Shown piece after piece: positions 18,795 to 26,731 of a stretch of DNA of 33,020 bases. Made by a program: the position numbers and the translations under genes. The stretch's first letter is position 1; every line of letters begins with the position of its first letter. Where the stretch lies: positions 1 through 33,020 of the forward strand of contig DYHI01000013.1 of assembly GCA_020724225.1 (NCBI GenBank). Reading direction: 5' to 3'. The notes beneath the pieces are model-generated. The model was not told the DNA's origin, did no database searches, and saw nothing but the letters and a program-made list of their open reading frames with translations. Source of the DNA: Candidatus Altimarinus sp. (lineage in GTDB: Bacteria > Patescibacteriota > Gracilibacteria > BD1-5 > UBA6164).

Positions 18795-19013
18795 ATGAAG
18801 ACAAGAACAATTGTAGTAAACGGAAGTACATATATAATCCCATACCCACGATGTGAACTACCAGACGAAAGAAATGGTTGGCGAGCATTCAAGGAATGGA
18901 AACACGATTTTCAGGAACTAAATCCAAGTGTAATGACTCTTTCCTCAAAAGAAAGAGAAGGTATATATAATGAAATATTGAGGTCATTTGGATTTATATC
19001 CTGACAACCCTAA
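18795..19013 (+). CDS. Small ORF of atypical composition
   Basis: A 72-residue protein (69 if TGA at 19002 were a stop) beginning MKTRTIVVNGSTYIIPYPRC, rich in Trp and charged residues (NGWRAFKEWKHDF), with no family I recognise. It differs from its neighbours: a perfect AGGAGG, four glycines all GGN with no TGA inside, two CGA arginines, more G/C-ending codons, and a GC-rich terminator directly behind. The only TGA is three codons before the TAA, so the product is almost the same in either code. It could be acquired from a standard-code source such as a phage or plasmid, or be a highly expressed host gene (rpmF also avoids TGA). Confidence 0.65.
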
Positions 19014-26290: not shown

Positions 26291-26437
26291 TGGCGGGCAT
26301 GGAGGGAATCGAACCCTCAACCTTTACCTTTGACCATGAGGATATTCACTAGGAACCATTACCTAATTACTAGTCTCTCACTATCCACGATGTATTGTGG
26401 AATTCGATAATATTCTTACCACCTGAACTACATGCCC
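26291..26437 (-). tRNA. tRNA gene interrupted by about 70 nt in the anticodon arm
   Basis: On the minus strand an acceptor stem GGGCATG/CATGCCC, a D arm GTTC-AGGTGGTAA-GAAT, a T arm GAGGG-TTCGATT-CCCTC, discriminator G73 and an encoded CCA are all perfect. The D arm and G73 resemble tRNA-Asp. Between TTATC (27-31) and GGTAA (39-43, pairing with one G-U) there are 77 nt instead of 7. The 3' part of that stretch ends in TCAAA, which would give anticodon UCA if taken in register; GTC (Asp) is one base away. No way of joining the ends gives the universal U33. The insert can fold into CCAC/GTGG and GGATA...TATCC hairpins. Intron, unusual tRNA or pseudogene remain open. Confidence 0.7.
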
Positions 26438-26450
26438 TGTAAAATCTTTG

Positions 26451-26523
26451 TGGAGCTAACTGGATTCGAACCAGTGACCTCTCAGATGCCATCTGAGTGC
26501 TCTGCCCACTGAGCTATAACTCC
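26451..26523 (-). tRNA. tRNA-Ala (anticodon GGC)
   Basis: 73 nt on the minus strand with all arms: acceptor GGAGTTA/TAGCTCC, D stem GCTC/GAGC, anticodon stem CTCAG/CTGAG with loop ATGGCAT (U33, anticodon GGC), variable AGGTC, T arm ACTGG-TTCGAAT-CCAGT, A73. CCA is not encoded. The usual alanine identity pair G3-U70 is replaced by A3-U70, with a U-G pair at 5-68 instead. The anticodon is therefore the only support for Ala. Confidence 0.75.
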
Positions 26524-26544: not shown

Positions 26545-26572
26545 ATATTAATGCTTTTTTATTTATTGTCAA
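26545..26572 (-). promoter_or_regulatory. Promoter of the tRNA cluster
   Basis: On the minus strand TTGACA (26572-26567) and TAATAT (26550-26545) are spaced 16 nt, about 20 nt before the 5' end of tRNA-Ala. Confidence 0.75.
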
Positions 26573-26588
26573 ATTTATTTTTTGATTT

Positions 26589-26697
26589 AAAAAAGCCGGG
26601 CTGAAGCCCGGCATAAATTCCACATGGTGGAATGGAGGAGACGACAACCAGGCCTACAAATATGATGGGTCCCACCCCACCAAGAAACCTGACTGTC
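26589..26697 (-). ncRNA. Uncharacterised structured RNA of about 109 nt
   Basis: An independent RNA gene on the minus strand with its own promoter and terminator. The 5' end GACAGUCAGG pairs over ten positions with CCUGGUUGUC further on (two G-U pairs). The enclosed part has a hairpin UGGUGGG-GUGGGA-CCCAUCA. Then come a single-stranded GUCUCCUCC, a hairpin AUUCCAC-CAU-GUGGAAU and a terminator GCCGGGC-UUCA-GCCCGGC-UUUUUU. GC content is far above the surroundings, as expected of a functional RNA in an AT-rich genome. I do not recognise it; the GGAA-loop core of SRP RNA is not present. No long ORF is convincing here. Confidence 0.75.
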
Positions 26698-26703
26698 AAT
26701 TAA

Positions 26704-26731
26704 AATATAACCATAAATATATATTTGTCAA
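26704..26731 (-). promoter_or_regulatory. Promoter of the structured RNA gene
   Basis: On the minus strand TTGACA (26731-26726) and TATATT (26709-26704) are spaced 16 nt; the predicted start, seven bases on, coincides with the first base of the outer RNA helix. Confidence 0.8.

Follow-up and report, generated by a model that had tools for sequence, protein, structure and literature searches.

Small RNAs (sRNAs) that carry an anti-Shine-Dalgarno (anti-SD) sequence are known from settings in which mRNAs carry SD sites. In the Betaproteobacteria toxic small RNA family (RF02278), which includes bdhR1 and S17S, a single-stranded UGUCUCCUCC is followed by a hairpin, the sequence UGGAUU and a terminator. 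Both S17S (Bordetella) and bdhR1 (Burkholderia) use their C/U-rich stretch to pair with ribosome-binding sites (PMC11722255, PMC5688073), and these sRNAs, which are comparable in design to the one described here, repress mRNAs (PMC11722255). S17S is processed from a longer RNA bearing an upstream stem-loop. Members of the Alpha-r14/NfeR1 family expose a CCUCC anti-SD in unpaired regions while the sequences of their stems are free to vary, and the CCUCCUCCC motifs of NfeR1 pair with ribosome-binding sites and repress mRNAs (PMC10746234).

Judging from sequence, a 109-nt sRNA gene located at 26589-26697 on the minus strand of the 33,020-nt stretch that we analyzed (the window) is real, conserved and previously unnamed. 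The sequence-only reading of this locus had proposed a stand-alone structured RNA gene with a TTGACA-16-TATATT promoter, an outer helix, internal hairpins and a terminator. All of these are present on the minus strand, and a 109-nt RNA with its own promoter and terminator is confirmed at 26697-26589; what that reading overlooked is a conserved unpaired linker, GUCUCCUCC. The sigma70-type promoter (TTGACA-N16-TATATT, 26704-26731, minus strand) matches the consensus at 11 of 12 positions in its two boxes (TTGACA, 26731-26726; TATATT, 26709-26704), and the distance from TATATT to the predicted RNA start, G26697, is 7 nt. The predicted fold (-47.3 kcal/mol; z of about -4.1 versus shuffles) comprises, all on the minus strand, a 5' hairpin (26643-26697) with a 13-bp outer helix, 10 bp of which are formed by GACAGUCAGG/CCUGGUUGUC; the linker (26634-26642), our proposed pairing seed; a second hairpin, AUUCCAC-CAU-GUGGAAU (26617-26633); and an intrinsic terminator, GCCGGGC-UUCA-GCCCGGC plus U6 (26589-26612), encoded as a stem of seven G-C pairs followed by T6. 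The sequence GGGGUGGGACCC is also found in the sRNA, but within a hairpin. With a G+C content of 52%, the gene falls in the top 0.05% of 109-nt windows in a genome (G000) whose mean is 24.7%, and among the 113 TTGACA-N15-18-TANNNT sites in ~1.16 Mb (nearly the whole genome), a GC-rich terminator lies no more than 230 nt away in only one case, that of the sRNA.

A syntenic homologue is present in one of four congeners (G001), where we reached it via a neighboring ORF that encodes an AGOG-type DNA glycosylase (Pfam). Its promoter, TTGACA-N16-TAATAT, has equal spacing and occupies the same position. Identity between the two 5' hairpins is at the level of shuffled sequences, yet the helix persists in G001 as 14 bp composed of different bases, and in an arm-swap test each species' own arms paired at -14.5 and -14.2 kcal/mol, compared with -2.6 and -4.1 kcal/mol for arms combined between species. 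Comparison of the two genomes thereby shows that the 5' hairpin has been kept by compensatory change, which the sequence-only reading had named as the pattern to look for in relatives. The 3' part, by contrast, is conserved in sequence, the second hairpin included: 47 of 59 columns are identical, versus 32 +/- 2 (maximum 37) in shuffles, and the nine bases of the linker are identical in both species and predicted to be unpaired in both with a probability of at least 0.93. A BLAST search with the sRNA against 60 relatives returned the self-match alone, and a covariance model built on the 3' half and run on 77 genomes of the order detected G000 and G001 only, the remaining matches being bare terminators or coding DNA; the lack of any further copy among these 77 genomes indicates a narrow sRNA family. 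Viral contigs yielded at least 120 matches to the motif, with the following hairpin in none of the 80 that were examined, and phage records gave weak chance matches alone.

No Rfam family matched the sRNA at its gathering cutoff. RF02278 scored 31.5 bits (G000) and 37.5 bits (G001) against a gathering cutoff of 50. The sRNA has the arrangement of that family, an unpaired UGUCUCCUCC followed by a hairpin, UGGAUU and a terminator, except that GUCUCCUCC is preceded in G000 by C instead of U, and its 5' hairpin recalls the upstream stem-loop of the S17S precursor. It differs in lacking a second CUCCUC in the hairpin loop, in being transcribed with its own 5' hairpin, and in belonging to a different phylum and an SD-less genome. 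RF02278 is the nearest described family in design, but with scores below its cutoff we do not claim membership; the likeness lies in the proposed mode of action. The Alpha-r14/NfeR1 family likewise resembles the sRNA in its exposed anti-SD and variable stems, but it has three CCUCCUCCC motifs where the sRNA has one GUCUCCUCC, and it gave no Rfam match. SorX and SorY matched weakly across the C/U-rich stretch and terminator, but scored only 24.3 bits (cutoff 46.6) and 33.2 bits (cutoff 111).

Could the sRNA be a divergent housekeeping RNA (SRP RNA, 6S or tmRNA)? Two such slots look empty: the RF00169 model, the only SRP model used, found no match at the locus, in the G000 genome or in 48 family genomes, and no 6S RNA was found in the genome. 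The sRNA itself, however, lacks the SRP tetraloop and GCAGCC core as well as the long duplex of 6S, matched neither 6S (RF00013) nor tmRNA (RF00023), and is missing from three of the five congeners, all five of which have a tmRNA candidate elsewhere (in G000 at 45.4 bits, versus a 47-bit cutoff). A housekeeping identity is thus extremely improbable, in keeping with the earlier judgment that no SRP, 6S or tmRNA core could be recognized here.

The position of the gene raises a different possibility, that it is a cis-acting T-box-like leader or riboswitch for the tRNA genes that lie downstream on the same strand. The sequence-only reading had likened GGGUGGGACC to a T-box bulge while holding that no gene that it could control follows. 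The first point is contradicted by the fold, in which GGGUGGGACC sits within a stem, by G001, which has no counterpart of it, and by the absence of a T-box match to the sRNA in Rfam. The second must be qualified, as a tRNA-Ala (GGC; 26450-26523) and a tRNA-like gene do lie downstream, both on the minus strand, though past the terminator and under another promoter (26572-26545, with TTGACA at 26572); tRNA-Ala is outside the sRNA. With a strong terminator and a new promoter intervening, and with tRNAs not being T-box targets, we consider a cis-acting role very improbable.

The genome in which the sRNA resides differs from those of the systems introduced above. TGA is read as glycine, the long ORFs of the window being open under code 25 alone, which is consistent with an origin in Gracilibacteria; a protein relative is encoded in a Candidatus Gracilibacteria MAG. 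SD-like motifs are depleted upstream of G000 ORFs (12 of 879, versus 44 of 877 and 41 of 879 background windows). The 3' end of 16S rRNA, known from the congener G001 (L236, G001 C1) as that of G000 is absent from the assembly, reads GGACUAUCUCCUUAUU in place of GGAUCACCUCC, with loss of the CCUCC anti-SD core; SR1 bacteria have already been described as SD-scarce and without CCUCC (PMC10783764). Given the depletion before ORFs and the G001 tail, GUCUCCUCC cannot serve at home to block SD sites in general, and the SD count rules out generic SD blocking by the sRNA.

The SD sites that the genome does contain are mainly on a small, GC-rich set of dispersed mini-genes, each with an SD before ATG, a short ORF of relatively GC-rich codons and a terminator, and with products that are often signal-peptide or membrane-like. 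Their promoters resemble in type those of the genome's own genes, in which TTGAC lies at -57 to -61 and TATAAT at -34 to -39 relative to ordinary starts. One mini-gene is in the window (18795-19004, plus strand; 69 aa, SD GAGAGGAGG, TGA end, promoter TTGACA at ~18703) and is a weaker predicted partner of the linker (-15.5 kcal/mol). Others in G000 are on L197 (~2.1 kb), L200 (5251-5648), L246 (16376) and L251 (6019-6240), and those of G001 are on L294, L299, L300, L305, L317 and L331; several are conserved between the two species.

Since ordinary genes lack SD sites, the sRNA would act on few SD-bearing mini-mRNAs, and it is most likely a trans-acting antisense regulator of these, a reading in which we place about even confidence. 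Among the hallmarks of such a regulator, the promoter, the terminator and the conserved unpaired seed were found and the pairing was computed. The linker would serve as a seed for purine-rich, SD-type sites. At home, a few mini-genes alone stand out clearly as candidate partners, the best being mini2 and RNA-G, both chosen after inspection of the ranked lists. On mini2 (G000 C2, ~2.1 kb; G001 C7:5305) the linker is predicted to cover the SD and the start codon in both species, pairing GGAGGGGAUGAUGAA with UUGUCGUCUCCUCC in G000 (-24.7) and GGAGGGGACAAUGAA with UUGUCUCCUCC in G001 (-22.3). For a GUC insertion present in the G000 linker there is a counterpart in the mini2 target, such that sRNA and target change together. 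On RNA-G (G000 C51:16404; G001 C15:76768) the predicted linker site is 29-40 nt inside the reading frame. In a pairing scan of all 100-nt windows of ~1.16 Mb (G000) and 1.07 Mb (G001), this is the top site in G001 (-28.7; next, -25.0) behind the sRNA's own antisense strand, and in G000 it is within the top dozen (-23.2), with several unrelated windows pairing better. G000 has three copies of GGAGGAGAC, one opposite the sRNA, one in RNA-G and one in a coding sequence. RNA-G, like the sRNA, is present in G000 and G001 only, but this common distribution is weak evidence because these sole two species are also each other's nearest relatives. Between 5 and 8% of shuffled linkers score as well on the mini-gene set, indicating that purine-rich mini-genes are favored by any C/U-rich linker.

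Alternatively, the sRNA could work through a protein or through its structure, for example as a scaffold or sequestering RNA, with the linker as a protein site. Conservation of the whole architecture, and of the second hairpin in its sequence as well, would fit, and the targets of the linker are computed. The strictly conserved single-stranded part is nevertheless a nine-base SD complement with two homologous partners in both genomes, and we regard a protein- or structure-based function as unlikely, though worth keeping in mind. If the sRNA instead regulates mini-mRNAs in trans, placement of the linker over the SD and start codon would block their translation, and pairing within RNA-G could either destabilize RNA-G or titrate the sRNA. 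The presence of an anti-SD sRNA amid ordinary genes without SD sites and a minority of mini-genes with such sites suggests a layer of regulation to which the mini-genes alone are visible.

In the mini-genes, TGA also seems to act as a stop, although this genome uses it for glycine. All 43 of their glycines are encoded by GGN, whereas TGA accounts for 79% of the glycine codons of 830 ordinary ORFs; the mini-gene count is partly circular in that frames were cut at the first TGA (a 74/75-aa pair ending in TAG/TAA is exempt). Three homologous pairs end in TGA in one species but in TAA or TAG in the other. The single release factor sequence found belongs to the RF1 type, and there is also a tRNA with a UCA anticodon, making TGA termination at home unlikely, so the mini-genes, if they do stop at TGA, become candidate genes for use in another cell; how such epibionts act on their hosts would then become directly testable. 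The sRNA might by extension act in a cell other than its own, a bacterial host or prey of the presumed epibiont, where SD sites are common, where its exposed CUCCUCC would bind many SD mRNAs in the manner of a toxic sRNA and where the mini-genes would also be expressed. The codon and stop usage, the release factor and tRNA complement and the CCUCC-less G001 16S tail favor such action. The sRNA promoter, however, is of the genome's own type, from which transcription at home is expected, the route of RNA export is hypothetical, the host is presumed, and the circularity of the glycine count applies here too; we consider action in a host or prey doubtful. Slightly more doubtful still is that the sRNA and the SD-bearing, standard-code mini-genes form one program read by host ribosomes, in which the sRNA regulates either mini-mRNAs or host SD mRNAs. 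In both species, the UCA-anticodon tRNA gene (L200:7109-7187 and L299:1823-1901) lies ~2 kb or less from the same cluster of mini-genes.

The tRNA-like gene downstream of tRNA-Ala (26294-26437, minus strand; L022:2464-2629) is a neighbor conserved in G001, and a 70-90 nt insertion replaces its anticodon loop. The insertion holds CUAGUAAU, a hairpin that covaries, and GUGAAUA. Homology to a piece of 16S rRNA was considered, as CUAGUAAU...GUGAAUA also occurs in the 16S rRNA of G001, and was dropped; a bulged-G motif (AGUA/GAA) accounts for much of the likeness. A class-wide pattern search found no further copy. The gene is followed by conserved hairpins, a CUCCC stretch and a terminator.
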